Assembly (NCBI GenBank): GCA_029940345.1
Contig: JAOZRC010000035.1
Location: 1 to 16,855 of the forward strand
Origin: Desulfobacterales bacterium
GTDB taxonomy: Bacteria; Desulfobacterota; Desulfobacteria; Desulfobacterales; JAUCGF01
Reading direction: 5' to 3'
Length of the DNA: 16,855 nt
This document shows, one piece after another, positions 792 through 16,669 of this stretch (its first letter is position 1; the number at the start of each line of letters is the position of its first letter). The translations under genes were made by a program, and so were the position numbers. Under the pieces are notes generated by a model. That model was given only the letters and a program-made list of their open reading frames with translations, was not told the origin of the DNA and did no database searches.

Positions 792-2219
792 TTATTTCCC
801 GATGCAAAAATTACGAAAAATCATATCAAGCACATCCTGACTGGTGGTCTGACCGGTGATTTCATCCAAACAGGCAAGCGTTTCCTGGAGATTGAGCGCA
901 ACAATTTCGTAGGGTGCTTCCGCCATTAATTCGTCAAGCGCGGTAAAAAGCGGCGCAACACCTTTTTCAAGCGCGAGTTTTTGCCGCAGGTTGGGAACAT
1001 ACAACGAGTTTGAGGACGCGCTTGGCTGATCATGAAGCTTTTTTACAATTACCTGGCGTAACGCATTGATTCCTTGTTTGTTTTTTGCGGAGATATAGAT
1101 CGAAGGTGGTGTTTTCCAATCGTCCGGAAACCGTTTCTTGAAACACGCTTCCATAATATCAATTTTGTTATGCACCAAGACAATATTTTTTTCTTTTACT
1201 TCGTCGTAAATATCAAAATCATCTTGGGACAACAAGTTGCCAGTGTCGGTGACCAATAAAACCAGGTCGGCGTTTTTTAAACTTTCCCTGCTTTTGCTAA
1301 TTCCAAGCTTTTCGACTTCATCCTGACTGTCCTGTATTCCAGCTGTATCTGAAAGCAAAATGGGTATTCCGTTTAGAATGACGGTTTCAGACACTAAGTC
1401 ACGGGTGGTGCCGGGGATATCGGTGACAATGGAGCGATCTTTTTCCACCAAACAGTTCATCAGGCTGGACTTACCCACATTCGGTTTCCCGATAATGCTG
1501 ATTTTGAAGCCTTCTCGTAGATAGTTGGCATCATCATATAGCCTGATAAGCGACTGAATATCAGTAATGATTTTTTCTATGCCGGTGGCCGCCTGCTGTT
1601 CGATGGTTTCCGAGTCATTGATGTCATCGGTAAAGTCTATGATAGCTTCAATCAGACTCAGAACCGCTAATAATTCCTTTTTAACTGCCTCGATTTTATG
1701 ACGCAGCCCACCGCCGAGATTTTCATTGGCGATTGCCAGCGCTTTTTCATTTTGGGCGTTAATCAGATCAATGACGGATTCGGCCTGGGTGAGATCAATA
1801 CGGCCGTTTAAGAAGGCTCGCCGCGTAAACTCACCGGGTTCGGCAAGGCGGGCACCATTTTTTAAGACGAGTTTAAGGATGTAATTTAATACGGCCGCTC
1901 CTGAATGGGAGTTGATTTCAACAACGTTTTCGCAAGTGTATGAATGAGGCGCCTGCATGTAGGATATCAGCACCTCATCACAAATTGTATTTTCGGCAGG
2001 ATCGATCAGGTAACCGTAATAGAGATGGTGGCATTGAAACTCGGTTTTAGAATGAAGCACGCCATTAGCGCGAAAAGCCTTGGCGTGCTTGGGTTTAAAA
2101 AGAAGGGTTGCGATTTGTAAGGCGTCTGCGCCTGAAATTTTAATCAGGCCGACACCGCCGGTTCCATAAGGTGTGGCGATGGCGGCAATGGTGTCACTAT
2201 TTCCTGGCAAACGGATCAC
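792..2219 (-). CDS. mnmE: tRNA uridine-5-carboxymethylaminomethyl modification GTPase MnmE
   Basis: MnmE (TrmE) works with MnmG to modify the wobble uridine of certain tRNAs, using GTP, a folate one-carbon unit and FAD. The 475 residues follow the family plan. The N-terminal tetrahydrofolate-binding domain starts IRLPGNSDTIAAIATPYGTGG. A helical middle follows, with an embedded G domain carrying the P-loop GKPNVGKSSL from residue 244, then DTAG and NKID. The C-terminus ends FCIGK, with the conserved catalytic cysteine. The length is close to the usual 450-475. The start is a GTG at 2217-2219, one base after the jag stop codon, with an AGGG nine bases upstream inside the end of jag, so translation is probably coupled. 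It is the last gene of the rpmH-mnmE group, and mnmG does not follow it here. Confidence 0.97.
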   Translation of the reverse strand: MIRLPGNSDTIAAIATPYGTGGVGLIKISGADALQIATLLFKPKHAKAFRANGVLHSKTEFQCHHLYYGYLIDPAENTICDEVLISYMQAPHSYTCENVVEINSHSGAAVLNYILKLVLKNGARLAEPGEFTRRAFLNGRIDLTQAESVIDLINAQNEKALAIANENLGGGLRHKIEAVKKELLAVLSLIEAIIDFTDDINDSETIEQQAATGIEKIITDIQSLIRLYDDANYLREGFKISIIGKPNVGKSSLMNCLVEKDRSIVTDIPGTTRDLVSETVILNGIPILLSDTAGIQDSQDEVEKLGISKSRESLKNADLVLLVTDTGNLLSQDDFDIYDEVKEKNIVLVHNKIDIMEACFKKRFPDDWKTPPSIYISAKNKQGINALRQVIVKKLHDQPSASSNSLYVPNLRQKLALEKGVAPLFTALDELMAEAPYEIVALNLQETLACLDEITGQTTSQDVLDMIFRNFCIGK

Positions 2220-2220
2220 A

Positions 2221-3012
2221 TCACTTTGCCCTGCGATTATTTTTCTTAGGATAAATGACCAGTTTGCGCATAATTCCGCTGCCGATACTCTGGGTGCGCA
2301 CCCCCGCTTTGTCTCTCAGGGCGATATGCACAATCCGGCGTTCCTGGGCGTTCATCACGCCGATGGTAACCGGTTTGCCTGATAATTTCGTTTTTTCGGA
2401 AAGCCTTAGCGCCAGTTTGATCAGGTTGTCTTTACGCTTTTTAAGATATTGTTCAATGTCTATATGTAAACGAATATGCTTTTTACACTTGCGACTGACC
2501 ATTTTTTCGACAAGGTATTGGATCGCCTCCAGGGTCTGGCCATGTTTGCCAATAATGACCCCCGGATGAGGCCCGCTGACCATCAATTCAATCGGTTCAC
2601 GCTTTTCAACGGTTATCGTTGCGTTATCAGTGATAAAATCCAATATTCGCCTTAAGGCCGTTTGGGCAAGCTCAAGTGGGTCCGAAATGTTATCTTTTTT
2701 TGTAGGCACGGCGTCATCGCCTCCCGCGGCGATTTCGGCGTCATCTTCGGTAAGCTGAGGGGAATTCATATCCTTATCTGCTGATGGCGTCTGAGATTTT
2801 TGATCGGACGCTTCACCAGTGTCAGCATGTTCATCCTGGATACGCATTACCCGAATTTTGGCCTTTTTTCTGCCAACAATACCAAAAAAACCACTGGATC
2901 CGGGTTGCACTATTTCATATTTTATATTTTCTTTTAAAATCTTAAGTATATCACATGCATTGCGGACAGCGGCGTCGATATTCTTTCCTTCAAATTCATA
3001 ATAACGTGACAT
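2221..3012 (-). CDS. jag: Jag/KhpB-type RNA-binding protein (KH and R3H domains)
   Basis: This is the SpoIIIJ-associated protein family, usually encoded next to yidC. In several bacteria it forms an RNA-binding pair with a small KH protein and affects envelope growth. The 263 residues show an N-terminal Jag_N domain (about 1-50, starting MSRYYEFEGKNIDAAVRNA) and an acidic low-complexity linker (about 60-110). A KH-like domain carries the GxxG-type loop IIGKHGQT, and a C-terminal R3H domain carries the Arg-x3-His pattern in RRIVH. The basic tail ends KKNNRRAK. The ATG at 3012 is preceded by GGAGG five bases away, a strong ribosome-binding site. The gene starts 13 bp after yidC and runs to within one base of mnmE. 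The cellular RNA targets are not predictable from sequence. Confidence 0.95.
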   Translation of the reverse strand: MSRYYEFEGKNIDAAVRNACDILKILKENIKYEIVQPGSSGFFGIVGRKKAKIRVMRIQDEHADTGEASDQKSQTPSADKDMNSPQLTEDDAEIAAGGDDAVPTKKDNISDPLELAQTALRRILDFITDNATITVEKREPIELMVSGPHPGVIIGKHGQTLEAIQYLVEKMVSRKCKKHIRLHIDIEQYLKKRKDNLIKLALRLSEKTKLSGKPVTIGVMNAQERRIVHIALRDKAGVRTQSIGSGIMRKLVIYPKKNNRRAK

Positions 3013-3025
3013 AGCAACCTCCGGT

Positions 3026-4720
3026 TCAGATAGTTTTTTTCTGGATATAATATTGCTGGGCTATGGACACAACATTGTTGATAAGCCAATAGAGAACCAG
3101 CCCTGCGGAAAAATTGATAAAAATAACTGTAAAGGCGAGGGGCATAAATTGCATGATTTTGGCCTGGGTTGCATCTCCCACCGGCGGAGACATTTTTTGC
3201 TGCAAAAACATGGTGACACCCATTATGATGGTAAGCACCGGGATTCCGTAAGGCGCTTCCATAAATGGAATCGAAAAACCGAAATTACCCAAACGATCAG
3301 GCGCTGACATATCCGTTATCCATCCGAAAAAAGGCGCATGCCGCAATTCGATGGCCTGATAAAGCATCCTGTAAAATGCAAAAAATACGGGAATTTGGAT
3401 AACCATCGGCAAACATCCCCCGATAGGATTAACTTTATAGGTTTTGTAAAGCTGCATGGTTTCTTCTTGAATACGCTTTTTATCCCCTTTGTATTTTTCT
3501 TTAATCTCGGACATAAGCGGTGTCAGTTTTTTCATTTCGGCCATTGATTTATAGCCTTTGCTCCCCAGCGGCCATAAAACCATTTTGATTAACAAGGTTA
3601 AAATGATGATCACAACGCCGTAATTGGGAATATACTGGTAAAGATAATTCATAAATGAGAGGCAGGGTTTTGCAATAAAATCAAACCAGCCGAAATCAAC
3701 AGCTTTATCGAGTTGATGGCCACTTTGTTTTAAAATGCTGACCTTCTTCGGACCGATAAAAAGTTCGTATTCAAGCGACGCTTGCATATTGGCTTGAATC
3801 TCCATCAGCGGTGCGGCATATTGACTGGTAATCACATTTTCGCCGGTCACATTAAGCCTGAGTTCACCGTTCTGGTTTTTAACAGGCATCAGGGCCGTTA
3901 TAAAATAGCGGCCTTCCACCGCAATCCAATCCACTTTACCAGGATAGACATTTTTTTTGGCAATATCTTTAATGGCAATTTGTTCCAATGTATTGTTAAT
4001 GAGGGCGCTGGGTCCGGAAAAACCGAAGCGATCAATATCTTTGGGCATCACTTTTTTTAAGCCCACGATGGCCTGTCCTTGAATATCTCGGTCTGATTTA
4101 TTTATAATTCGGACTGTGAGGCCAATTTTATACGATTGGGGCGTAAACAGGTATTCCTTTTGGACAATAACGCCTTGTTCCGATTGCGATGTAAAAATGA
4201 TATGATGGGGATTGTTCCCAACAGTGACTTCGCTGTCAGTCGCATCGCTATGAAACACAACACTGTTCAGGTTGTTCAATTGGTTCCCGCTGAATTCCAG
4301 CGTAATTGTCCCGGTCTTAATTTCAGAAGGAGGAGCCATTTGGTATAATGGGGAATCCGGTGAGGAGGTTTCATAGTAATTGTTAAGCAGGAAACTTTTA
4401 ATCACAGCACCTTTTTCGGATATTTTAGCGGTGTACAATGGTGTTCTGATCGTTAATATACGCGCCTGGCGCTCTTCCGTAACATCTTTTAACGGCAGTG
4501 CCGCAATGGTTTCATCAGCCTTGCTAACATCAGCGGCAGACGCGGATTCCGCCGGGATAACGGTTTCTTCGTATTTACCGTCATCTTGTTTTTGCCTGAT
4601 TTCATCTTTGCGGGCGTCTTGTTGGCGTTTAGCGGCCTCGTTGTCGACAAAAAGAAGATTCCAAACGAGGAAAACCAATAATGACAGACCGATTGCAAGA
4701 AATAATCTACCTTGTTCCAT
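3026..4720 (-). CDS. yidC: Membrane protein insertase YidC
   Basis: YidC inserts and folds inner-membrane proteins, alone or with SecYEG. The 564 residues match the long Gram-negative form. An N-terminal membrane anchor (about 5-25) is followed by a charged linker and a large periplasmic beta domain (about 70-345). The conserved insertase core starts near residue 360 and carries KVNPIGGCLPMVIQIPVFFAFYRML, with further membrane segments around ILTIIMGVTMFLQQKMSP and the C-terminal AGLVLYWLINN. The position of the groove arginine of E. coli YidC (R366) appears to be a lysine here (K379 in LLIKMVLWPL), a conservative change. The ATG at 4720 has AGGA six to seven bases upstream. The gene lies 187 bp after yidD, an unusually large gap for this cluster, and 13 bp before jag. 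Confidence 0.97.
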   Translation of the reverse strand: MEQGRLFLAIGLSLLVFLVWNLLFVDNEAAKRQQDARKDEIRQKQDDGKYEETVIPAESASAADVSKADETIAALPLKDVTEERQARILTIRTPLYTAKISEKGAVIKSFLLNNYYETSSPDSPLYQMAPPSEIKTGTITLEFSGNQLNNLNSVVFHSDATDSEVTVGNNPHHIIFTSQSEQGVIVQKEYLFTPQSYKIGLTVRIINKSDRDIQGQAIVGLKKVMPKDIDRFGFSGPSALINNTLEQIAIKDIAKKNVYPGKVDWIAVEGRYFITALMPVKNQNGELRLNVTGENVITSQYAAPLMEIQANMQASLEYELFIGPKKVSILKQSGHQLDKAVDFGWFDFIAKPCLSFMNYLYQYIPNYGVVIIILTLLIKMVLWPLGSKGYKSMAEMKKLTPLMSEIKEKYKGDKKRIQEETMQLYKTYKVNPIGGCLPMVIQIPVFFAFYRMLYQAIELRHAPFFGWITDMSAPDRLGNFGFSIPFMEAPYGIPVLTIIMGVTMFLQQKMSPPVGDATQAKIMQFMPLAFTVIFINFSAGLVLYWLINNVVSIAQQYYIQKKTI

Positions 4721-4907
4721 AATTTTTCCTTTTAATTCTAACTAAACTGATAGGCTGTTGACCCAATAATGGTTGAGGAGTTCAAAATAAAGCGGTAACG
4801 ATTTGCATAAATTTTTATCCAAGGGAGTGGTAATTTGTCCGGGCAAGACCTTTATGCCAGTGCGGCAAGTCGAATAAGCAAACTTTAAAACAGTCGATGC
4901 GAGTCTT

Positions 4908-5108
4908 TCATGGCACCGGGTCAAATCCGCCCGGATGAAAGGGATGACATTTTAGGATGCGCTTAACTGCGAGGAAAACACCTTTTAAGGTTCCATACCT
5001 TGCGATTGATTCATACGCATAAGCTGAACAACTCGGATAAAAACGGCATCGATTTCCTAACAAAGGTGAAATTAAAACCTGGTACAACCGAATACACACC
5101 AATGACAA
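4908..5108 (-). CDS. yidD: YidD family membrane protein insertion efficiency factor
   Basis: YidD is a small membrane-associated protein that assists YidC-dependent insertion and normally sits between rnpA and yidC, as here. The sequence has the family signatures [23 protein letters not shown] and the C-terminal CHPFHPGG. The start is uncertain because no in-frame ATG exists. The TTG at 5106-5108 gives 66 residues but has no good ribosome-binding site. The frame stays open upstream through codons reading IKKLLTILS, which look like a normal YidD N-terminus. They would start at an ATC codon (5127-5129 or 5133-5135), and a GGGAG at 5141-5145 is ideally placed for the latter. That would overlap the end of rnpA. 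The function call is safe; the exact start is not. Confidence 0.9.
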
Positions 5109-5113
5109 TATCG

Positions 5114-5485
5114 TTAGCAGCTTTTTGATCGTGATTTTTTCTCCCGGAAACAGATTGCCTTAAAAAGTTTTTTTAAATCGGAACACACCGTTTTGAATGT
5201 TATGCCGGCAGCCTGCTTTTTGGCAATGATATTAATATCCCAAACACCTTGAAGGCACTGTTGGTTTAAACGATAAAATTCGCGTACATAGCGTTTTATC
5301 AGATTACGTGTGACCGCGTTTCCCACTTTTTTGGTAACCGTAATTCCAATACGATTCCGATGGGTTGATCCGGTTTGGTAAATAGCCAAGAAATAGCGGC
5401 TGTGTATTTTTTTACCTTCTCGGGATAACGCGATGTATTCCGTGCGTTTTAAAATTCGGCTCGCTTTGGTAAAGCTGAATTTCAT
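5114..5485 (-). CDS. rnpA: Ribonuclease P protein component
   Basis: The protein subunit of RNase P binds the catalytic RNA and helps remove 5' leaders from precursor tRNAs. The 123 residues carry the family motif [13 protein letters not shown] near the middle, preceded by [14 protein letters not shown], and the protein is strongly basic throughout. The length is normal. I chose the ATG at 5483-5485. An in-frame TTG directly before it would add one residue. No clear Shine-Dalgarno sequence precedes it, which is common when a gene is translated close behind rpmH. It starts 32 bp after the rpmH stop, and the end of the gene may overlap the true start of yidD. Confidence 0.96.
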
Positions 5486-5517
5486 CAAGAATTCGTCCGA
5501 TAAATTGAATAAGCGAA

Positions 5518-5652
5518 TTAAAGAGCGAGTCTTTTGCAGCCTTTGGCTCGACGCCGATTGATAATCCTGCGACCGGCTTTGGATGACATCCGTTTTAAAA
5601 AGCCATGTTTGCGGGCGCGTTTGATTCGACTGGGTTGAAATGTTCGTTTCAT
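5518..5652 (-). CDS. rpmH: 50S ribosomal protein L34
   Basis: The 44-residue basic protein starts [18 protein letters not shown], the L34 signature, and continues with the usual FLKRMSSK and [12 protein letters not shown] segments to end CKRLAL. L34 is a small structural protein of the large ribosomal subunit. The ATG at 5650-5652 has AAGGA about nine bases upstream. The gene heads the conserved rpmH-rnpA-yidD-yidC-jag-mnmE order. In many genomes dnaA and the replication origin lie on its other side, but here the neighbour is rng, reading in the same direction behind a terminator. Confidence 0.97.
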
Positions 5653-5691
5653 AATCTTTAGTCCTTTTCTTCTGATTTTTATTACCAGAAC

Positions 5692-5697
5692 ATCATA
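5692..5697 (-). promoter_or_regulatory. Candidate -10 element upstream of rpmH
   Basis: On the minus strand a TATGAT hexamer lies 39 bases before the rpmH ATG and just after the intrinsic terminator, where the promoter of the ribosomal and RNase P operon should be. The surroundings are AT-rich, but no good -35 hexamer is found at normal spacing (TTGAGC is present, 22 bases away). The call rests on position more than on sequence. Confidence 0.3.
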
Positions 5698-5734
5698 TCA
5701 TTCATTATTGAAAAAATCTGCTCAATAATCAGAT

Positions 5735-5769
5735 AAAAAGCTCGCTATGAGGCAGAGCCTCGTAACGAG
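5735..5769 (-). terminator. Intrinsic terminator after the rng transcript
   Basis: Read on the minus strand, CTCGTTACGAGGC pairs with GCCTCATAGCGAG around the loop TCT. This gives a 13-bp stem with one G-U pair and one mismatch, followed by CTTTTTAT. This is a standard Rho-independent terminator. It lies about 180 bases after the rng stop codon and ahead of rpmH, so it probably insulates the two minus-strand units. Confidence 0.75.
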
Positions 5770-5950
5770 ACGTACTGGTGTCACTAGCTTCTGTCGGCAA
5801 CTATTTACTTTGTTCTTTCACGTAAATCATAATCACTGAATTATGTTAAGCAACATTATTTTATAGTGATTCGCATTTTCAGACAATTGATAATCACACC
5901 GAAAAGTGTGTAAACATATCTTGGCAAGCTTAAAATATTGTTTATCACTT

Positions 5951-7414
5951 TCAAAGCACCTCCACAATATCAAATTCCTCTATATGAAGATTTCCTTTAG
6001 GATATATAATAATCGGTTTGCCGATTAGTTTTTCAAGTTCGGAAATCATCTGATTTTCCTCCCCGTGAAGCAATTCGGCGACCTGTGGATGCACCGCCAG
6101 TGTGAAGTTGACGCCGATCATATCGCGCGAGAGGCGCAATATTTCCCGATACACCTTATAACATAGCGACCTTGGCGATAAATGATGGCCTTCACCTTTA
6201 CAATAGCAGCACGGTTCACATAATGTTTGGGCTAAACTGCTTTTCGTCTTTTTGCGGGTCATCTGGATGATGCCAATTTCAGACATCGGCAGCACATAGG
6301 TTTTGCGTCGATCTTTTTTTAGCGCTTCAACCAGTGCGTTAAACACTTTTTCCCGATTGACCTTTTTTTCCATGTCAATGAAATCAATAATAATAATTCC
6401 GCCGATATCCCGCAAACGAATTTGGTAAGCAATTTCTCTCAACGCCTCCAAATTGGTTTTCAGTAAGGTTTCTTCCAAATTATGTTTACCGACATACCGG
6501 CCGGTGTTCACGTCAATGGCAACCAGCGCTTCGGTTTGGTCAATGACAATGTCCCCTCCTGATTTCAGCCACACTTTGCGTTGAATGGCCCGTGAAATGT
6601 CGCCTTCCAAATTATAGGCGTCGAAAACCGGTTCGTCATCCTGGTAGAAAATCACCGAATCTTTCATCATCGGCATATAGCGGTCTAAAAATTTAATGAT
6701 CTCCTCGTAGTCCTTGCGGGAATCCACGATAAGGCCGTCCGCTTCCAAAGTCAGCAAATCCCTGACAGCCTTCAGGCTGATATTTAATTCCTGATGAACC
6801 CGTGACGGTGCCGGCGCGGTCTTGGCTTCGGACTGAATTCTATCCCACAGGTTATTTAAAAACGTCATCTCACGGATTATTTTTTCTTCTTTAACGCCTT
6901 CCGCCACGGTTCTGACGATAAAACCGGAGTCATCAGGCTTGCTTTCCAAGACAATTTTTTTAAGCCGCTGCCGTTCAGGTTCATCAACAATACGCCTGGA
7001 AATTCCGATAATATTAGCCTGAACCATCAGCACCAGGAAACGCCCAGGAAGGGAAATGTGCGAAGTCACGCGCGCGCCTTTGGATTCCGAGGGAGAGCGG
7101 ATAACATGAACCAGGATCGTCTGCCCTTCCGAAATCAGTTCTTCAATAGATGGTTTGGTTTTTGAATCATGGGAAGCTTCATCAGACTCTTCGATAATAT
7201 CGTTGGCATGAATAAAAGCGGCCTGTTTCAAACCGATATCTATAAAAGCGGCCTGCATTCCAGGCAAAACACGTCGCACCACGCCTTTATAGATGTTGCC
7301 GATGATGTTGTCATCATCTTTGCGCTCCATGAATAGTTCGACAATCGTGTTATCTTCCAGGAACGCGACCCGCGTTTCATGATGGGTGACGTTAATGACC
7401 AGTTTTTTGTTCAT
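5951..7414 (-). CDS. rng: Ribonuclease G (RNase E/G family endoribonuclease)
   Basis: RNase E/G enzymes cut single-stranded RNA next to a 5' monophosphate sensor and process rRNA and mRNA. The protein has 487 residues from the ATG at 7412-7414 (MNKKLVINVT), matching RNase G and not the longer RNase E with its scaffold tail. It has an embedded S1 domain (about 35-120, with NIYKGVVRRVLPGMQAAFIDIG). The metal-binding catalytic aspartates are visible as D301 in VAIDVNTGRYVG and D344 in IIDFIDM. The zinc-link cysteines are C399 and C402 in CEPCCYC. An upstream in-frame TTG would add six residues, but neither start has a clear ribosome-binding site. The gene directly follows the radical SAM gene, with a small palindromic repeat between them. 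Confidence 0.95.
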   Translation of the reverse strand: MNKKLVINVTHHETRVAFLEDNTIVELFMERKDDDNIIGNIYKGVVRRVLPGMQAAFIDIGLKQAAFIHANDIIEESDEASHDSKTKPSIEELISEGQTILVHVIRSPSESKGARVTSHISLPGRFLVLMVQANIIGISRRIVDEPERQRLKKIVLESKPDDSGFIVRTVAEGVKEEKIIREMTFLNNLWDRIQSEAKTAPAPSRVHQELNISLKAVRDLLTLEADGLIVDSRKDYEEIIKFLDRYMPMMKDSVIFYQDDEPVFDAYNLEGDISRAIQRKVWLKSGGDIVIDQTEALVAIDVNTGRYVGKHNLEETLLKTNLEALREIAYQIRLRDIGGIIIIDFIDMEKKVNREKVFNALVEALKKDRRKTYVLPMSEIGIIQMTRKKTKSSLAQTLCEPCCYCKGEGHHLSPRSLCYKVYREILRLSRDMIGVNFTLAVHPQVAELLHGEENQMISELEKLIGKPIIIYPKGNLHIEEFDIVEVL

Positions 7415-7447
7415 AGTTGAATTATAATCCAATTAAGATTAAGAAGC

Positions 7448-7480
7448 AGGGTAGGTTTCGCTTCGCTGCACCCACCCTAC
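7448..7480. repeat. Short palindromic repeat between the radical SAM gene and rng
   Basis: A 33-bp imperfect hairpin, AGGGTAGGTTTCGC opposed by TGCACCCACCCT, has CGCTTCGC near its centre. It overlaps the last codon and stop of the radical SAM gene. This resembles a dispersed intergenic element (reading GTAGGGTGGGTGCAGCGAAG on the other strand) that I recall from several bacterial phyla; I cannot count copies here. It leaves about 33 bp before the rng start and could act as an RNA stem between the two genes. Confidence 0.55.
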
Positions 7481-10005
7481 ATTTTAACAATTCGCGCCTG
7501 TTTAATCTGCTTTTCAGATAGTTTGAAAATTGCGTTCATAACCATGGCCGGCCGAACAACCTGACCTCGCGCCAATTTGAAGTCCATATCCAAATGATCG
7601 GGCGAAGGATGTTCGATTCCGGTAATGATCTTTTTCAAATCGATATTCCGCGTTTTGCCTTTGCGATTGGTCCGAGAGATAATAAATGTCTGGGCGTTCA
7701 GAAATTGAGCTAAGGATTCCGCATTAAAATTGCCCTGTTTGAGTGTAACGCCGTATCTCACCGTTTCTTCCGTATGCGGGGCTGTTTTTACGATATTTAA
7801 TTGACATTTGAATGCCTTAAGCCCCTTTGGAAGAAAAGCGTTTAATTGCTCAATAACAGTTTTGCTGTCAATCGTTCCGATCAGGGATATCCAGAAGCTT
7901 TCATTCATGCTCTCTATACCGATGGGCAGCGTATCATTAAACACAATCTTAGGCTTGGGATGAAATCCCTCGCTGTATTTTATTTTAAGACCGCTGCGCT
8001 TGATTGCACGAACAAACATATTGACCATTTCAAGATGGCCAAAATATTGGGCGGCACCAGATTTTTGATAGTAAATTTTAATTTTTTGATAATTAATCCC
8101 CGGATCGCTTTGCTGCGACAGTTGTTCGTGGGCGCCCGCTTTTGTGGAAGAGCAGAGGCTGGGTTGAATTTTTTTGAAATCACATGCACCGCAAAGCCCG
8201 CAAGCATTATCACGGCAATCCGCCGTTAACGTTTCAGATTGCGCCCGGCACCATTCCTCGATCAAAAAGCCGGTGTCAATCCGCATGTCAATATGATTCC
8301 AGGGAAGTTTTTCATTCATTGTTCTGGGTCGGGTTGTGTAATAATCAATGTCGATCCCGCTCTGATCAAGCGCATCTTGCCATAATTCATACCGGAAGCG
8401 GTCACTCCACCCGTCCAGATGACATCCGCGCTCGTAAGCATGAATCAGCAGAAGGCTCAAACGACGGTCGCCCCTGGCAAAAAGGCCTTCGATCTGACTG
8501 ATTTTAGGATTTTGCCATTTTAATTGAATGCCAGGTCGTTTGAGTTTGTTTTGCAGCCATTGAATCCTGCGCTGCGATTCTTCCGTTGTGATCTGCGGAT
8601 GCCATTGAAAAGGGGTGTGCGGTTTGGGAATAAAGGTTCCCACGCTAACGGTTATTTGGCCTTTTCGCCGGTTATGCTTGCCTGCTGTCCGGGCGACTTT
8701 GCGTATTTCCAAAACCAAATCGACAATCGCCTGAAGGTCTTCATCCGTTTCGGTGGGAAGGCCGATCATAAAGTAAAGCTTAATGAGAGACCAACCCAGG
8801 TTAAAAACCGTGCGAACCGTATCCAAAATTTCTGTGTCTGTGATGTTTTTGTTGATCACATTGCGAAGTCTCTGGCTACCGGCTTCGGGTGCGATGGTAA
8901 ACCCGGTTTTACGCACCGTTTTGACGAGTTTGGCCATTTCCGGCGTTAATGTGCCGGCGCGTAACGATGGCAGGGAAATAGCGATATGTTCCGATGCGCA
9001 CTGCCCCATTAATTGTTGCATCAGGGGCAAGATGGTGCTATAATCACCAGTGCTTAAAGATAGAAGTGACATATCCGTATAACCGGTCTGGGACAGTGAT
9101 TCTTCAGCAAGATGAATAAGGGTTTCCACGCTTCTTTCTCTGACCGGGCGATAAATCATACCGGCCTGGCAAAAACGGCATCCGCGTGTGCATCCGCGAC
9201 CGATTTCCAAACGCAAGCGGTCATGCACCGGCTTGCCAAACGGAACAATGGCCGCCATGGGAAACGGTGCCCGGTCAAGATCTGCAATAATTGTTCGCAC
9301 CACCTTCGGATAGGTGTCATCGCGAGGTTTTAGCGCAGTAATTTCAGGCTTCCAGCTATCGCTCGGATGAATATCTTCAAAAAAAGAGGGGATATAAACC
9401 CCCTCTGTTTTGGCCCATTGACGCAAAAGACACGCTTTATCGTTTCCGTGCGGACCATGTTTCCATTCTAACCAAGTGTGTGTCATGGCCGGCAGCACTT
9501 CTTCGCCATCACCAATCACAATCGCATCAAAAAAAGCGGCTACGGGTTCGGGGTTGCAAGTGCAAGGACCGCCGGCAATGATCAGCGGATGCTCTATGTC
9601 TCTTTCGCTGGCATAAAATGGGATATCAGCCAAATCCAGCATCGTAAGAATATTGGTGTAATTCAATTCATACAACAGGCTGAAACCGATCATATCAAAA
9701 CGGTTTAAGGCGGTATGCGTTTCCAGACTCATCAGTGGAAGTCCGGCTAATTTAAGATGCGCGGTCATATCTTCCGCCGGTGTATAGACGCGTTCAGCAT
9801 ATATTTCAGGATGCAGATTCAAAATATGATAAAGAATCTGAAGCCCGAAATGAGAGGTTCCGATTTCATAAAGGTCGGGAAAAGCCAAGGCGATTTTCAA
9901 TTTTACCTGTTCAGGTTTTTTACAAATACTGTTGATTTCGCCACCGAGATAGTGGCTGGGTTTTTCAATCAGCGGTAAAATATCTTGGATTGTTTTAATT
10001 TTCAT
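7477..10005 (-). CDS. B12-binding-type radical SAM protein fused to a TIGR03936/DUF2344 domain
   Basis: The 842 residues join two pieces that are separate proteins in many bacteria. Residues 1 to about 600 match the TIGR03960-type family: an N-terminal B12-binding-like domain (with DLYEIGTSHFGLQILY), then a radical SAM core whose iron-sulfur cluster motif is C272-x3-C276-x2-C279 in GRGCTRGCRFCQAG. A cysteine-rich link (CRDNACGLCGACDF) leads into a C-terminal domain of about 200 residues of the TIGR03936/DUF2344 type, with YFGHLEMVNMFVRAIKRSG and YSEGFHPKPKI. The family is often encoded beside rne/rng and ribosomal protein genes rplU and rpmA, as here beside rng, which suggests RNA or ribosome modification; the reaction is unknown to me. 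No DxHxxG cobalamin-histidine motif was seen. The ATG at 10005 lacks a clear ribosome-binding site. Confidence 0.92.
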   Translation of the reverse strand: MKIKTIQDILPLIEKPSHYLGGEINSICKKPEQVKLKIALAFPDLYEIGTSHFGLQILYHILNLHPEIYAERVYTPAEDMTAHLKLAGLPLMSLETHTALNRFDMIGFSLLYELNYTNILTMLDLADIPFYASERDIEHPLIIAGGPCTCNPEPVAAFFDAIVIGDGEEVLPAMTHTWLEWKHGPHGNDKACLLRQWAKTEGVYIPSFFEDIHPSDSWKPEITALKPRDDTYPKVVRTIIADLDRAPFPMAAIVPFGKPVHDRLRLEIGRGCTRGCRFCQAGMIYRPVRERSVETLIHLAEESLSQTGYTDMSLLSLSTGDYSTILPLMQQLMGQCASEHIAISLPSLRAGTLTPEMAKLVKTVRKTGFTIAPEAGSQRLRNVINKNITDTEILDTVRTVFNLGWSLIKLYFMIGLPTETDEDLQAIVDLVLEIRKVARTAGKHNRRKGQITVSVGTFIPKPHTPFQWHPQITTEESQRRIQWLQNKLKRPGIQLKWQNPKISQIEGLFARGDRRLSLLLIHAYERGCHLDGWSDRFRYELWQDALDQSGIDIDYYTTRPRTMNEKLPWNHIDMRIDTGFLIEEWCRAQSETLTADCRDNACGLCGACDFKKIQPSLCSSTKAGAHEQLSQQSDPGINYQKIKIYYQKSGAAQYFGHLEMVNMFVRAIKRSGLKIKYSEGFHPKPKIVFNDTLPIGIESMNESFWISLIGTIDSKTVIEQLNAFLPKGLKAFKCQLNIVKTAPHTEETVRYGVTLKQGNFNAESLAQFLNAQTFIISRTNRKGKTRNIDLKKIITGIEHPSPDHLDMDFKLARGQVVRPAMVMNAIFKLSEKQIKQARIVKM

Positions 10006-10073: not shown

Positions 10074-10481
10074 TTATTTATGGGTAATGAAATTAAGTAA
10101 TTTGTCAGCCAACTTTTTATCCACAGGATAAATTTTTTGATATTGACCCAGCGCCTGGGTATATAAACCCAGTTCTTCATAGCAAACACCGATATAATAT
10201 TCGGTGTTCATGTCATCAGGCGCAATCTGACTTCGTTTCAAAAAATTTTCCAGGGCTTTACGATATTTGCCCAATTGCATATAGACCATTCCCAATTGCA
10301 TATATGCTTCGATGTCGTTGGGGTTTTTCGCGATGGCTTTTTCGCTGTCTTCGATTATTTTGCCTTGAGGCCCTGAATGTGAACAACATGCCAGAAACGT
10401 CCCCATCAGGATAACGATGACGGCAAACACCCAAATGGAATTAAAAGCGACCAACTTGTATTTTTGCACACCTTTTTGCAT
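10074..10481 (-). CDS. Small TPR protein, probable lipoprotein or membrane-anchored
   Basis: The 135 residues start with a basic N-terminus and a hydrophobic segment (about 10-31) that ends TFLACC. This is a plausible but imperfect lipobox, with Cys32 or Cys33 as the lipidation site. About two and a half tetratricopeptide repeats follow (about 45-130), with IEAYMQLGMVYMQLGKYRKAL and YYIGVCYEELGLYTQALGQY. TPRs are protein-binding scaffolds, and the partner is not predictable. I chose the ATG at 10479-10481 because GGAG lies eight bases upstream. A TTG 12 codons earlier also keeps the frame open but has weaker signals. The gene lies 68 bp ahead of the radical SAM gene on the same strand and may share its transcript. 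Confidence 0.8.
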   Translation of the reverse strand: MQKGVQKYKLVAFNSIWVFAVIVILMGTFLACCSHSGPQGKIIEDSEKAIAKNPNDIEAYMQLGMVYMQLGKYRKALENFLKRSQIAPDDMNTEYYIGVCYEELGLYTQALGQYQKIYPVDKKLADKLLNFITHK

Positions 10482-10657
10482 TTCAGTTGCTCCTTTAGTC
10501 AGTTTTGATAAAACCAAAATCGTTTCAGTATTGAAAATATGTTTAAATCAGACCCGTTATCTGCTATGCTGTTAAAGGCTAAAATTGGTGATCGGTGCCA
10601 CCGAACTCAGTATATCCGATCCTTTTCATGCAGAACCGCATCTGCATTGAATAATAA
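10482..10657. other. Divergent intergenic region left of the MITE-like element
   Basis: This is the original control region between two divergent genes. It contains an odd palindrome, TCGGTG-C-CACCGA at 10592-10604, and a hairpin with 7-bp arms ATGCAGA and TCTGCAT at 10628-10647. Either could be an operator or a small RNA stem. On the minus strand a TATACT hexamer near 10610-10616 could be a -10 for the TPR gene, but no good -35 accompanies it. I see no coding frame. Confidence 0.4.
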
Positions 10658-10947: not shown

Positions 10948-13900
10948 ATGGCATTAATAGAAAATGACGCAATTGTAAAGAAACTTTACCAAATAGGGAG
11001 CTATGCTTTGAAAACACAACCGCAAGGACTGACCCGCAATCTGGATGAAACTCAGTTTGATGTTCAAATCAATGAAAAATATGAAGTCATCCTGGCACTC
11101 TTTAACACGTATTTCGGACTAAAGGAAGGATTGACTATTTTTCTGAAAGAACTTTCCAATCCGTTACGCAACTGGCAATTTATCATCAGCGAAGCCCGAA
11201 GATACAGCCTGAATCATTTGCATCTTTTTAAGAAACCGCCGCACGGTCCCCGGGCTGCGAAACGATTTGCCGATATTTTCCACTGCGCCATTGAAGAAGA
11301 CATTGAATCGGAAGTCAAAATTGAAGCGGCAGATTACCTACTTCTTTTTTTATTAAGATTTATCAAGGAATCCGGCTCCCCAATCGAAACCATTTTGCCA
11401 CTCATCAACTATTCATTCAAACGTATATATCTTTACGATGATGAACGCTTCTTTCTGTTCGTTAAAAGCTATTATCGCCTGGAACGGATTGTTGAGGCGT
11501 TGTTAGTTCATGGTAAAGATGTGCCGCCGGAGGAATCAGCATTTTTTGAAGTGATGAACACGTTACTTTTGCGATATTATCAAGCCACATACACCTACTG
11601 GCTAAATGAAGCCGACCCATTGTTTTGGGCTAAAAAAGAGGCGGAAGATCTCGCGATTTTGCCAAAGGAGGTAAATACAATTCTTGAACCGCTTTCACAC
11701 GCCCGCCTGCGCAAGGAAAACGAGCGTCTCAACCAGTTGTCGGAAACTGAAAATAGCAAAAATAGAAAAATAACAGCGGCCGAAACGGCGACAAATCTGA
11801 TCCGTTTTCCCGGACATAACCAATTCGTGTCTGTTTACAAACAAGCTCCACAGAATCTGCTTGAGGCCGGCAAAAACAGCCGGCAGGGCAATCAATGGAA
11901 GCTGCTGTTTCTTTTTCATATCATGAATATTCCAGGCCTGGCGTTGATTCATGAGGAAACGTTGCGCGACATCAACAGTACGCTCAGTTGGATGATCGGT
12001 AAGGAAAATAATCCCTATATACAGAAGTTGATTAAAAAAACGTTCACCATTATCAAGCCGCGCGCCGATCAGTTTCCGGAAACAACGCTCAACTGCATTC
12101 TGAATATGGGTAAAGGCGTATATCAGACCGCTGACAGTGATTTGGTGAATTATTTCATTGATTGTGTGATTGATTCAGGCTTTCAAACCCCGATGATCAA
12201 AGGGGTCAATGATGACTGGCAAATTAAAGCGAACACCGCCCATGTTCAGAACATCCGGGTCTGGATGGATCTGATTGAGTTGAATCCCAAATGGTCTCTG
12301 AATTTAATTTCTAACCTGATCATTTATCTTACACTTACAGGAGTTTTTATTAAAGACACTGACCTTTTCCCTCGTGATATCACCCGATTGTTAAACAGCC
12401 CGATTGAACCGGTTTACAACCCGGTGAAACAATTGACGCGTCTCTTTCCGGTCTATTACAATGACATCGGCGCTGAAGGCGACCTGCGCGATATTTCCAC
12501 ACGCATTGATGAAATCTGCAACCGCAAAGATATCCTGATCCATTTTTTTCGCAAACGCATTCATGTTGAAAGCAGTAATCGGGTGATCGGTCTGACTGAG
12601 GCGGTTCTCTGTTTCTGGGAAACCGGTGAAAAAGAGCCGCTGCAGTCTTTTATTCCGCCTGGTTATTATGAGCAAATCGAAACCCATGGGCCTTATGTTG
12701 ACGGCGTTCGCGCAATCATAACTTTTCTTAAAGCAAACGGTGTGCGGGTCCCCGATGATCTCTTAAGTGTTTCTGACGCCAAACTCAGACGCATTATTGA
12801 CAAAACGCCGGAATCCCAAGCTTCGACCATTGATCGCGAACGCGTGGCAATGTTTATCGTTCTTTATAAGTTACTCTATCAGAAATATGACCTGGCCTTT
12901 ACCGAAACGACCCATTACCTGGCGCAACTGAAAACGGAGGTGTTCCCCCATTTCCAAGTGCTTATGGAGGCGTTGGCTGAACAGACGCGGCCTGACGCTG
13001 CCACCAAAACCAAACTTCAAAAATTGCTCAATTACCTGACGTTATTGAAAGATGTCGTCCAATCTGACCAAACCCATGTGATTAAAGAGGACATTTACAA
13101 AAAAAGACACTTCACTACGGATATTCCCTCCATGTTCGGCAGTTATCATGAGCTCAAATTTGATGCCCTGGGTTTGATTTTTCGAATCGAATCATTGATC
13201 AACCCGTTGTTTGAAGCATTGAGTGTGGAAACAGACCTGACCTTGATCACCAAAGCGACGTTTCACAAAATTCACAACCGTTTGCGGCTCTTTTACCAGG
13301 CCCTGAAACTGGATGGCATCTCTTCCACCGCCTTTGAACGCCAGATGGAATTGTTGACCCATTCGCTGGTTGTCAGGGGGTTCACCTTTACGCAATATCT
13401 TGATATTTTTAAAGGTTTTACCAAAGCGGTGCAAAATATAATCAATGACTATTTTCACACCATTCACCAGGATAATTTAGATAACCTGCTGGAACGCCTT
13501 CCCAATGATCGGTTGCTTGATAAATTCCGCTCTGATGAAATGGAATCCGACACCGAACGGTTTAAACATTGGGTGTCGGAAATATTTTTCAGAGATCGGA
13601 TTGCGTTTGCATTGGGACTTCAGCAATTGGACAACTTCTTAAGTAAAATATGGAACACCCTGGTTGAACAGGAACGCAATTTACCCATCGATCACCTCCG
13701 GATGCTGCTCAGATATGATCCGGATCGGATCATAACGCCTTTGGCGAATGCCAGGGCCTGGATCCTGGGTGCGACGGACCTGGGCAACAAGGGAAGTAAC
13801 CTGGTCACCCTTAAGACTTACGATTTCCCGGTGCCGCCCGGATTCATTATTACGACGGAAACATTCCGCTATCGTCTGGTAATTGAACATTATCCCCCCG

Positions 13901-15237
13901 CGAAACAAAATTTTCGGGAACAAGTGAGGCGCGATCTCAAAAGATTGGAAAAGGTGACGGGGAAAATTTTTGGGAATCCGGCCAATCCGTTGCTTGTTTC
14001 GGTTCGCTCCGGATCGGTCATTTCCCAGCCCGGCATGATGGACACCTTTATTAATGTCGGTATTAATGAAAAGATCGCCAAGGGCATTGCCGCGCGTACG
14101 AACAACCCCTGGCTGGCTTGGGATATTTATCGCCGCTTTTTACAATGCTACGGCATGGCGCACAATTTGACCCGCGACTCCTTTGATGCGGTTATCAGGC
14201 GTTATAAAAACCAATGGGGCATCCCCTTTAAAAGGGACTTTAGCGGTGTACAAATGCAAACCGTCGCAATGGGATACAAACGTCTGATCGAAGAATGCAG
14301 CGTTAATATCCTATTAAAACCGATGGACCAACTGAGCCTGGCAATCAGGATGGTCATGGATTCGTGGGAATCACCCAAAGCCCATGCCTACCGCCAGATC
14401 ATGGGTATATCAGATGATTGGGGCACCGCGGTCACCATTCAGCAGATGGTGTATGGCAATCGATCCCAGCGTTCAGGCACCGGTGTTTTTTTAACCCATG
14501 ATCCGCGCTCGCCCGGCGATCTGATCAGCTTGTGGGGCGACTTCACCCTTGGCAACCAGGGGGAGGACGTTGTCGCTGGTCTGGTGAACACCCTTCCGAT
14601 TTCAATTGCCCAACAGGACCGTGAAATGCGCAACACCGATATTACATTGGAAAGTCATTTCCCGGAAATTTACAACGGTCTTCTCTGCTGGGCTGATGAA
14701 TTAGTCGAAAAACGGGGCTGGAGTCCCCAGGAAATCGAATTTACCTTTGAAAATTCATCGGTTGACGGACTCTATATTTTACAATCGCGCGATTTGGGCA
14801 TCCGTGAACGTAAGACCCGGCCGGTTTTTGATCCCAAGGCCAAAACGGATGACAACTTATTGGGATATGGCATCGGCGTCAGTGGCGGCGCCTTGAGCGG
14901 GCGCATCGTGTTCACATTGGATGAAATTCGGCGCTGGCGTGATTCGGAACCCCTGACAAAATTGATACTGATCCGGAACGATACGGTTCCCGATGATATT
15001 CGTGAAATTCACGCCGCTGATGGTCTGCTCACCGCCCGCGGCGGTATGACCTCGCACGCCTCCATCGTGGCGTATCGTCTTGAGAAAACCTGTGTGGTCG
15101 GAAACCACCAAATGGATTGTAATGAAACAGCTAAACAGTGCCATTTCGGAAATATAGCGCTTAAATCCGGAGATTATATCAGTATTGACGGACATAAAGG
15201 GGCCGTTTTCCAGGGGAAGATGTTGATTATGAAATGA
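10948..15237 (+). CDS. Large PPDK-like phosphotransferase without the PEP/pyruvate barrel
   Basis: The 1429-residue protein ends with two domains typical of pyruvate phosphate dikinase. The ATP-binding domain runs from about 935 to 1290. It has LGNKGSNLVTLKTYDFPVPP (K948), VSVRSG (R1020), PGMMDTFINVGIN, WGTAVTIQQMV, QGEDVVAG, and the nucleotide-contact pair E1264 in EIEFT and Q1279 in LQSR. The phosphohistidine domain follows, with GGMTSHA and the catalytic His1370. The protein stops about 59 residues later, so the C-terminal TIM barrel where PPDK and PEP synthase bind PEP or pyruvate is absent. Residues 1-930 are mostly predicted helix by eye and match no domain I know. The likely chemistry is ATP-driven phosphorylation through phosphohistidine onto an unknown acceptor. 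AGGA eight bases before the ATG supports this start. GAPDH follows on the same strand. Confidence 0.9.
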   Translation: MALIENDAIVKKLYQIGSYALKTQPQGLTRNLDETQFDVQINEKYEVILALFNTYFGLKEGLTIFLKELSNPLRNWQFIISEARRYSLNHLHLFKKPPHGPRAAKRFADIFHCAIEEDIESEVKIEAADYLLLFLLRFIKESGSPIETILPLINYSFKRIYLYDDERFFLFVKSYYRLERIVEALLVHGKDVPPEESAFFEVMNTLLLRYYQATYTYWLNEADPLFWAKKEAEDLAILPKEVNTILEPLSHARLRKENERLNQLSETENSKNRKITAAETATNLIRFPGHNQFVSVYKQAPQNLLEAGKNSRQGNQWKLLFLFHIMNIPGLALIHEETLRDINSTLSWMIGKENNPYIQKLIKKTFTIIKPRADQFPETTLNCILNMGKGVYQTADSDLVNYFIDCVIDSGFQTPMIKGVNDDWQIKANTAHVQNIRVWMDLIELNPKWSLNLISNLIIYLTLTGVFIKDTDLFPRDITRLLNSPIEPVYNPVKQLTRLFPVYYNDIGAEGDLRDISTRIDEICNRKDILIHFFRKRIHVESSNRVIGLTEAVLCFWETGEKEPLQSFIPPGYYEQIETHGPYVDGVRAIITFLKANGVRVPDDLLSVSDAKLRRIIDKTPESQASTIDRERVAMFIVLYKLLYQKYDLAFTETTHYLAQLKTEVFPHFQVLMEALAEQTRPDAATKTKLQKLLNYLTLLKDVVQSDQTHVIKEDIYKKRHFTTDIPSMFGSYHELKFDALGLIFRIESLINPLFEALSVETDLTLITKATFHKIHNRLRLFYQALKLDGISSTAFERQMELLTHSLVVRGFTFTQYLDIFKGFTKAVQNIINDYFHTIHQDNLDNLLERLPNDRLLDKFRSDEMESDTERFKHWVSEIFFRDRIAFALGLQQLDNFLSKIWNTLVEQERNLPIDHLRMLLRYDPDRIITPLANARAWILGATDLGNKGSNLVTLKTYDFPVPPGFIITTETFRYRLVIEHYPPAKQNFREQVRRDLKRLEKVTGKIFGNPANPLLVSVRSGSVISQPGMMDTFINVGINEKIAKGIAARTNNPWLAWDIYRRFLQCYGMAHNLTRDSFDAVIRRYKNQWGIPFKRDFSGVQMQTVAMGYKRLIEECSVNILLKPMDQLSLAIRMVMDSWESPKAHAYRQIMGISDDWGTAVTIQQMVYGNRSQRSGTGVFLTHDPRSPGDLISLWGDFTLGNQGEDVVAGLVNTLPISIAQQDREMRNTDITLESHFPEIYNGLLCWADELVEKRGWSPQEIEFTFENSSVDGLYILQSRDLGIRERKTRPVFDPKAKTDDNLLGYGIGVSGGALSGRIVFTLDEIRRWRDSEPLTKLILIRNDTVPDDIREIHAADGLLTARGGMTSHASIVAYRLEKTCVVGNHQMDCNETAKQCHFGNIALKSGDYISIDGHKGAVFQGKMLIMK

Positions 15238-15403: not shown

Positions 15404-16669
15404 ATGGAAACTACAGGCAACCCAATGAAACTGGGTGTTAACGGATTTGGCCGCATTGGTAAACTCACGGCCTGGCATCACATCAACCGCAAGTATTTCG
15501 GGGAACTGGTGATCAACATCGGACGCCAAGCCGGCGCTTCCATTGAAGATATCGCCCACTACCTTGAAAGAGATTCCAACTACGGCCTGCTTTCGGGCTA
15601 TCTGTATGGCTGCAATGCCAAGCCGGTGATTCGGGATATTGATGAAAAAAAAGGGCGCATGACAGTGGATGAAATGCCTGTCCGTTTCCTGAGAACCGCT
15701 CGCAATCCGGCCCTGATTGACTGGCGCAAACAGGATGTGCGGATAGTTGTGGATACCACCGGGCAATTTCTGGACCCAACGCTTCCCGGTGACCTTCCCA
15801 AAGGATCCATACGCGGCCATCTGGACGCCGGCGCTGAGAAAGTGATCGCTTCCGCACCGTTCAAATTTAAGGACAAATCCAAGGAGATGATCGGCGAAAT
15901 GCCGGATGATGCGGTTACAACCGTCATGGGGGTAAATGACGATGTCTATGATCCCCGGCGTCACCGTATTATTTCTAACGCTTCCTGCACCACCACCTGC
16001 CTGGCGCATATATTCAAACCGCTGCTCAACATTTTAGGGCCGCAGAAAATTCTTTCTGCGTCAATGGCAACCATCCATGCGGCCACCGGTTCGCAACAGG
16101 TGTTGGACCGCCTGCCCAAAACCGGCGTAACCGACCTGCGCAAAAATCGCAGCATTTTAAATAACATCATTCTCACATCAACCGGCGCAGCCAAGGCGTT
16201 GCGCCTGGTGATCCCCGAAATGGAGCAGATCGGGTTCATCGCCGAATCGGTGCGTATCCCAACCAGCACTGGCTCTCTCGTTATCCTTGTGCTAAATATC
16301 CAGGAAGACATAGATGGGGAGCCGATCCGCCGGGAATATATCAATGGTATTTACCGGGAAGCGGCCGCTGATGATCCCAAAGGCTATCTTCATTATACGG
16401 ATAAGCAAAATGTCTCTGGCGATATTATCGGCCTGCCCCGTGCCGCTGCCACCATTGAAGGCCACGAAACCCACACCCGCACCGCCGAAGTGCGCATTGA
16501 TCTGAGTACGGTTCCGGGCCTGGATAAAAAAATCATCAGCACGCTGGAAAATACGGTGATTCGTGTTCCCGTCACCCAGACGGTCATTTACGGTTGGTAT
16601 GACAATGAAATGGGCAGTTATGTGAACATATTGGGCGACCGCACGGTGACGATTGCTGAAGAAATGTGA
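15404..16669 (+). CDS. gap: Glyceraldehyde-3-phosphate dehydrogenase, long form
   Basis: GAPDH oxidises glyceraldehyde 3-phosphate to 1,3-bisphosphoglycerate in glycolysis, or runs in reverse in gluconeogenesis. The Rossmann motif NGFGRIGK is at 13-20. The catalytic cysteine is C195 in SNASCTTTC, and the base is H225 in ATIHAATG. The phosphate-site TSTGAAKA, RIPT and the C-terminal WYDNEMGSYVN are present. At 421 residues it is about 85 longer than the usual 335, with extra sequence near the N-terminus and in the last third. After the second beta strand the usual VND of NAD enzymes reads INIGRQAG, so the acidic residue that normally selects NAD is missing. The ATG at 15404 has AAAGGAGG five bases upstream, an ideal ribosome-binding site. 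It follows the PPDK-like gene by 166 bp. Confidence 0.94.
   Translation: METTGNPMKLGVNGFGRIGKLTAWHHINRKYFGELVINIGRQAGASIEDIAHYLERDSNYGLLSGYLYGCNAKPVIRDIDEKKGRMTVDEMPVRFLRTARNPALIDWRKQDVRIVVDTTGQFLDPTLPGDLPKGSIRGHLDAGAEKVIASAPFKFKDKSKEMIGEMPDDAVTTVMGVNDDVYDPRRHRIISNASCTTTCLAHIFKPLLNILGPQKILSASMATIHAATGSQQVLDRLPKTGVTDLRKNRSILNNIILTSTGAAKALRLVIPEMEQIGFIAESVRIPTSTGSLVILVLNIQEDIDGEPIRREYINGIYREAAADDPKGYLHYTDKQNVSGDIIGLPRAAATIEGHETHTRTAEVRIDLSTVPGLDKKIISTLENTVIRVPVTQTVIYGWYDNEMGSYVNILGDRTVTIAEEM

Follow-up and report, generated by a model that had tools for sequence, protein, structure and literature searches.

The dikinase gene at positions 10948 to 15237 (+ strand) of a 16,855-nucleotide stretch of Desulfobacterales DNA (contig JAOZRC010000035.1 of GenBank assembly GCA_029940345.1; the whole stretch is referred to here as the window) encodes a 1429-residue protein that combines a nucleotide domain of the pyruvate, phosphate dikinase (PPDK) type and a phosphohistidine domain with a large helical N-terminal part (the N-part) and that has no phosphoenolpyruvate (PEP)/pyruvate-binding barrel. 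We regard this architecture, together with the intact sites, as practically certain. The next open reading frame (ORF; 15404 to 16669, + strand) belongs to the dikinase system. It encodes GAPx, a divergent 421-residue relative of glyceraldehyde-3-phosphate dehydrogenase (GAPDH) that keeps the catalytic-type Cys195 and was recognized by profile match, linkage, and co-occurrence. We are confident that the two proteins form a functional pair, and the pair probably acts at the triose-phosphate node. A more specific reading, put forward tentatively and with clearly less than an even chance, is that the protein is a dikinase-type phosphoglycerate kinase, which would pass phosphate between ATP/AMP plus pyrophosphate (PPi) and 3-phosphoglycerate (3-PG) via a new helical acceptor domain and would either supply a dedicated NADP(H)-type GAPDH or be supplied by it. 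An original prediction made from the window sequence had described the dikinase and overlooked both GAPx and the glycolytic context, which are the main clues to function.

Domain architecture and conservation of the dikinase

Conservation was computed in two samples. The 64 neighborhood loci yielded 59 full-length dikinases for the conservation count; L073, L119, and L127 were left out as truncated or interrupted, and L085 and L087 were left out of both alignments and the tree and included in the tblastn neighbor table. Alignment A1 has 58 rows (i.e., without L126), and alignment A2 has 52 (i.e., also without L034 and the N-terminally extended L081, L091, L100, L102, and L122). The other sample comprises 283 full-length sequences (at least 1360 residues; window protein included) among 297 kept from the best 120 matches of each of three protein searches, which gave 1098, 1310, and 3200 matches, respectively.

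The dikinase frame is conserved over its length (38 to 85% identity between 57 relatives and the window protein over residues 290 to 1429; 30 to 82% for 51 relatives over residues 1 to 940) and is therefore not a chance ORF. Most orthologues begin about 12 to 25 residues downstream of its start. Single in-frame stops in two otherwise well-conserved dikinases (L016 [G009:C5] and G156:C1) are perhaps sequencing errors. In agreement with the original prediction, which had named PPDK-type kinase and phosphohistidine domains, Pfam matches only the C-terminal region of the protein, with PPDK_N (3e-27) and with the PEP-utilizers mobile domain (1.1e-16); the same search gave no match to the PEP-utilizers_C barrel. 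The N-part (residues 1 to 925; 10948 to 13722) is followed on the + strand by a PPDK-type ATP-grasp nucleotide domain (about residues 926 to 1283; 13723 to 14796), recognized by Pfam, NCBIfam, and PDB-sequence matches, and by a phosphohistidine swivel domain (about residues 1303 to 1425; 14854 to 15222), in which the orthologue alignment places the His1370 codon, within GGMTSHA, at 15055 to 15057. In those 280 full-length sequences that carry GG.TSHA, the chain ends 36 to 86 residues past the start of this histidine motif.

All 59 orthologues and all 20 complete PPDKs taken from related genomes have the same residue at K948, R1020, R1063, E1264, Q1279, R1281, T1368, and H1370; five of these (K948, R1020, E1264, Q1279, and H1370) had been listed as intact, and they stand at the positions named. 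The equivalents of PPDK K22, R92, E323, Q335, and R337 are kept in all 59, Glu replaces D321 at the equivalent position (1262) in 58, and position 1206 has Glu in 52 sequences and Asp in the other 7. The histidine, whose loss among orthologues had been raised as a possible objection, is retained in all 59 aligned sequences and in the larger sample (GG.(T/S)SH in 283/283; GG.TSHA in 280/283).

The dikinase scored below the equivalog cut-offs for PPDK (TIGR01828; 381.3 versus 843.45 bits), PEP synthase (PEPS; TIGR01418; 72.9 versus 739.75 bits, the barrel also being absent), and rifampin phosphotransferase (RPH; NF041857; 18 versus 999 bits), and by the tests made it is not a member of any of these families. 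Judged by score (381 versus 73 bits), its nucleotide domain is PPDK-like rather than PEPS-like, which suggests that the enzyme would use phosphate (Pi) alongside ATP and release PPi. In a quick tree of the C-terminal parts (59 dikinases and 20 PPDKs), the barrel-less proteins form a single clade apart from the PPDKs of related genomes (support, 100), and recent barrel loss is therefore not what is seen: the absence of the barrel had been correctly predicted, and the barrel may have been lost or may never have been there. Both the ATP-grasp and the phosphohistidine swivel features of the swivelling dikinase class are present, conservation suggests a possible acceptor role for the N-part, and the protein appears to operate in the manner of this class. 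Since its sites are intact and conserved, a barrel is absent, and the N-part contains no known domain, an acceptor other than pyruvate, as had been proposed, is likely.

Conserved patches of the N-part

Residues 1 to 930, which had been described as a module of no known family, matched nothing in Pfam, NCBIfam, or PDB-sequence profile searches, and no Pfam domain recurs among the relatives. The RPH matches lie within the nucleotide and swivel domains; the N-part was searched undivided into single domains. An AF2 model of residues 1 to 940 (mean pLDDT, 86; pTM, 0.81) predicts a solenoid that is helical except for one beta hairpin (713 to 717/730 to 734), and structural searches with the N-part returned generic helical-repeat proteins only. 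A diverged known acceptor domain, the alternative considered at the outset, was thus found by none of the Pfam, NCBIfam, PDB-sequence, and structural searches.

Conservation within the N-part is uneven, with column means of 0.39 to 0.45 at residues 101 to 300 versus 0.73 to 0.78 at residues 451 to 550 and 701 to 750; these peaks are as high as the ATP-site blocks (0.70 to 0.71). Patch 1 (residues 419 to 541; 12202 to 12570, + strand) contains the residues G419, W424, N429, H432, W439, P447, G465, D470, D472, L473, Q495, P501, I507, E510, G511, R514, T518, D521, E522, R535, K536, H539, and E541, all invariant in A2. Patch 2 (residues 714 to 748; 13087 to 13191, + strand) corresponds to the hairpin and contains the invariant residues K719, R720, H721, I726, P727, S728, G731, Y733, E735, K737, F738, R746, and E748; K646 and Y647 are likewise invariant in these 52 sequences. 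The loop with the KRH...IPSM motif has low confidence in both models (719 to 729 and 720 to 727), and the motif is present in 280 of the 283 full-length sequences. Such a combination, in which a charged, mobile, and invariant loop lies next to another invariant patch, is expected of an anionic-substrate site, and we infer from alignment and models that the patches and the loop are a candidate for such a site.

Pairing of the dikinase with GAPx

GAPx lies within 1.5 kb of the dikinase in 53 of the 64 neighborhoods searched by tblastn (48 on the same strand and 5 on the opposite strand). At a 350-bit cut, it is near in 52 of 64, always on the downstream side, with a median gap of 97.5 bases. The 11 loci without a nearby GAPx are L088, L093, L094, L095, L097, L099, L102, L107, L114, L121, and L123, the last of which comes from a stretch that ends 325 bases downstream of the dikinase.

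Distribution was computed in 58 genomes of the order and in 198 genomes drawn from the phylum (the same draw for both proteins), and co-occurrence is near-perfect. In the phylum draw, 51 genomes hold the dikinase (detected by its N-part) and 52 hold GAPx, with both in 50 and neither in 145; the exceptions are G168 (dikinase only; 76% complete) and G062 and G134 (GAPx only; 79% and 62% complete). Nine holders (G071, G109, G144, G172, G200, G210, G225, G231, and G248) still have the pair, unlinked (i.e., on another contig or far away). Dikinase orthologues occur in 44 of the 58 genomes of the order, with fragments in G008, G034, G043, and G054; both proteins are present in 41 genomes and neither in 13, the dikinase stands alone in G022 and G043 (in both of which it lies at a contig end) and in G054 (where the only match covers residues 21 to 445), and GAPx stands alone in G047. 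Named holders include Desulfamplus, Desulfonema, Syntrophus, Syntrophorhabdus, Desulfatitalea, and Desulfococcaceae bacterium HSG9, and where public sources name the protein at all, they call it pyruvate phosphate (or orthophosphate) dikinase, PEP/pyruvate-binding domain-containing protein, PEP-utilizing enzyme, or hypothetical protein. G036 carries a second, divergent dikinase (L088, G036:C4) that adjoins a canonical GAPDH gene; in the quick tree, L088 falls outside its own order and clusters with L094, L099, L107, and others, which suggests horizontal transfer.

On TIGR01534, GAPx scores 316.6 bits, below the cut-off of 367.2. When 48 GAPx sequences were compared with 23 canonical GAPDHs, the catalytic Cys and His, the TGAA loop, and the C3-phosphate-site Arg were found to be kept, and the GAPx consensus has the GxGRIG nucleotide motif. 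The ND(L) acidic NAD determinant is missing and an Arg is gained there, R-L replaces L-P after the LD motif, several insertions are present, and Asp181 of canonical GAPDH is Ser. In GAPDH mutagenesis, changes of this type favor NADP(H), and GAPx is, by its sequence, probably NADP(H)-linked.

Gene neighborhoods and genome content

In 27 of the 64 dikinase loci, a canonical GAPDH gene is found no more than 1.5 kb away (22 upstream and 5 downstream beyond GAPx), and the fetched stretches contain PGK in 17 loci and triose-phosphate isomerase (TIM) in 15. The order gapA - dikinase - gapX - pgk - tpi - secG occurs in L096, L098, L101, L103, and L108, and the order dikinase - gapX - gapA - pgk - tpi - secG occurs in L100, L104, L105, L120, and L122; further genes may lie between those named. 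Among the seven dikinase-free GAPx loci fetched, five have the order gapX - (GNAT) - pgk - tpi - secG, whereas those of G047 and G231 have none of these genes. Neither GAPDH type is near the dikinase in six loci (L094, L095, L097, L102, L114, and L121). A separate TIM-barrel protein encoded next to the dikinase, which the original prediction had considered, was not found: tblastn with five PPDK and PtsI-like barrel queries detected a PEP/pyruvate barrel in 0 of 64 neighborhoods and in 20 of 20 PPDK loci used as positive controls.

Canonical GAPDH is over the cut-off in 54 of the 58 order genomes and PGK is present in 55; each is found in 41 of the 44 dikinase holders (GAPDH not in G007, G022, and G039; PGK not in G012, G022, and G032). 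A complete PPDK is also present in many holders. The genome from which the window comes (G000; 93% complete) has a single PEP-utilizers_C barrel, in a 607-residue frame that is PtsI-like by length, and no complete PPDK or PEPS barrel was seen in G000 or its congener G001. CdhC (CODH/ACS) is weakly associated with the dikinase (41/51 holders versus 94/147 non-holders; P = 0.036) and dsrA more strongly (44/51 versus 55/147; P = 1.2e-9), with statistics that ignore phylogeny and are confounded by kinship. Seven holders, including G000 (best E, 4e-6), have no dsrA over the cut-off, so there is no demonstrated requirement for sulfate reduction.

The window also contains an ordinary housekeeping cluster (792 to 10005, - strand) transcribed away from the dikinase, with mnmE, a jag/khpB-like gene, yidC, rnpA, an RNase E/G gene, and a gene for a fused TIGR03960/TIGR03936 B12-radical SAM protein. 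A small TPR protein is encoded between this cluster and the dikinase (10074 to 10517, - strand).

Proposed reaction and alternatives

In the mechanism that we propose, the ATP-grasp domain would transfer a phosphoryl group from ATP (giving AMP, probably with conversion of Pi to PPi) onto His1370, and the swivel domain would swing phospho-His1370 to the helical N-part. There the acceptor would be bound in an anionic-substrate site formed by the invariant Arg/Lys/His patches together with the mobile loop. The phosphorylated product would be passed to GAPx. Acyl phosphates are the compounds on which GAPDH-type enzymes act, and gapA, pgk, and tpi recur as neighbors; the simplest acceptor step would therefore be 3-PG to 1,3-bisphosphoglycerate (1,3-BPG), and GAPx, probably NADP(H)-linked, would interconvert 1,3-BPG and glyceraldehyde-3-phosphate (GAP). 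Phosphoglycerate as the acceptor, suggested by GAPx and the gene context, falls somewhat short of an even chance. The pair would provide a second, AMP-linked route around PGK and GAPDH that is likely gluconeogenic or else reversed to recharge AMP and PPi. Coupling to the conversion of ATP to AMP and PPi would drive gluconeogenesis forward when the energy charge is low; in the reverse direction, AMP and PPi, both products of sulfate activation, would yield ATP. The excess of dsrA holders fits the recharge idea, but phylogeny confounds it and syntrophs also hold the gene. The explanation as a whole (i.e., a three-part dikinase, the 3-PG/1,3-BPG acceptor pair, and GAPx as partner) likewise stands somewhat below an even chance.

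Several observations weigh against this explanation. No GAPx is nearby in 11 of the 64 loci, and G047 (L164; 97% complete) has a shorter, GAPx-like frame of 392 residues, around which the fetched 13.5 kb contain no dikinase. The Fisher P value for co-occurrence (2.6e-43) is descriptive only, since the genomes are related and such values overstate independence. With canonical GAPDH and PGK each in 41 of 44 holders, there is as a rule no missing step to fill. No computation pinpointed the acceptor, and the orientation of the patches towards His1370 is an assumption. Moreover, the Ser in place of Asp181 suggests that the GAPx substrate may not be exactly GAP. This last point also favors a reading in which the same enzyme class and GAPx act on another carboxylate (e.g., another phospho-sugar acid), whose acyl phosphate GAPx would reduce. 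The several insertions in GAPx and the near-obligate pairing, although PGK already makes 1,3-BPG in 55 of 58 genomes, are on its side as well; the recurrent neighbors gapA, pgk, and tpi point instead to C3 phosphates, and the remaining GAPDH substrate residues are kept. We consider this reading rather unlikely.

A little less likely still is a regulatory phosphotransferase, in which the phosphohistidine would modify a protein (GAPDH, GAPx, or a PTS EIIA/HPr-type protein) to set glycolytic flux, with the solenoid as a docking surface. Helical solenoids commonly bind proteins, an rpoN, hpf, rapZ, or GNAT gene lies upstream in 14 of 64 loci, and L093, the sole locus checked for them, has two EIIA genes (PtsN-type and mannose-type); a regulatory role would be compatible with these contexts too. 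Yet such genes are near in 14 loci versus 53 for GAPx, and the dense invariant R/K/H/D/E of the N-part patches resemble a small-molecule site. Two further readings are highly improbable. A split PPDK, completed by a barrel protein encoded elsewhere and still acting on pyruvate, has precedents in two-component dikinases (HpeHI and PpsAB, as described in the available passages of PMC12167813), and the one barrel match in the window's own genome would be compatible with it, but the neighborhoods lack a barrel, many holders possess a complete PPDK as well, and the N-part would be left unexplained. To an equally small degree, the protein could be an inactive scaffold that organizes glycolytic enzymes and keeps its ATP site for structure; the solenoid and the clustering with glycolytic genes would suit this role, against which stand catalytic residues kept in 59/59 orthologues and the histidine in 283/283 sequences.

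If the phosphoglycerate kinase proposal is correct, the label pyruvate phosphate dikinase has concealed a different enzyme, and many of the proteins predicted to be "pyruvate, phosphate dikinases" are misnamed (the N-part search matched 3200 protein clusters at E of ≤0.001, not individually checked). Metabolic models of sulfate reducers and syntrophs would miss a step at the triose-phosphate node, AMP and PPi from sulfate activation would be tied to central carbon metabolism or energy-poor anaerobes would gain an extra gluconeogenic push, and a new acceptor domain would be added to the swivelling dikinases.

Comparison with known systems

We found no description of the dikinase family in the open-access papers searched, most of which were covered at the level of the title and the opening of the abstract; the portions consulted of PMC5701242, PMC4103992, PMC4046663, PMC7500099, and PMC8691401 contained no usable link to the gene. 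In the available part of PMC4001038, a gene with PPDK-like domains in a Desulfovibrio nitrate cluster (DVU0246/Dde_0604) is described, the disruption of which raised fitness in nitrate. We considered it as a possible phenotype-bearing orthologue.

The dikinase differs from PPDK (EC 2.7.9.1; 1kbl) in lacking the PEP/pyruvate TIM barrel, in having a helical N-part of about 925 residues, and in its C-terminal part, which forms a clade separate from the 20 PPDKs of related genomes. RPH, too, is a dikinase in one chain, with a swivel domain at the C terminus and an acceptor domain that is not a barrel; as had been predicted, its domain order differs, being ATP-grasp, acceptor, and His according to the passages seen of PMC4844700 versus N-part, ATP-grasp, and His here, and its nucleotide domain is close to that of PEPS, whereas that of the dikinase is close to that of PPDK. 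HpeHI, CreHI, and PpsAB are also barrel-less dikinases that phosphorylate small molecules, but they consist of two proteins with a PEPS-like nucleotide motif and phenolic substrates, and a GAPDH partner is unmentioned in the passages seen (PMC12167813).

GAPOR and GAPN are alternatives at the same GAPDH/PGK step and differ in having no dikinase; GAPN is found in certain bacteria and plants as well. With type I GAPDH, GAPx shares the fold family, the catalytic Cys/His and the C3-phosphate-site Arg; it differs in being about 85 residues longer, in scoring below the TIGR01534 cut-off, in its replaced NAD determinants, and in co-occurring with the dikinase. According to a review footnote (PMC8100219), no variations other than GAPOR and GAPN are known, and both are archaeal; if our proposal holds, the dikinase-GAPx pair would be a further variation of this near-universal step, the first with a dikinase and one widespread in Desulfobacterota.

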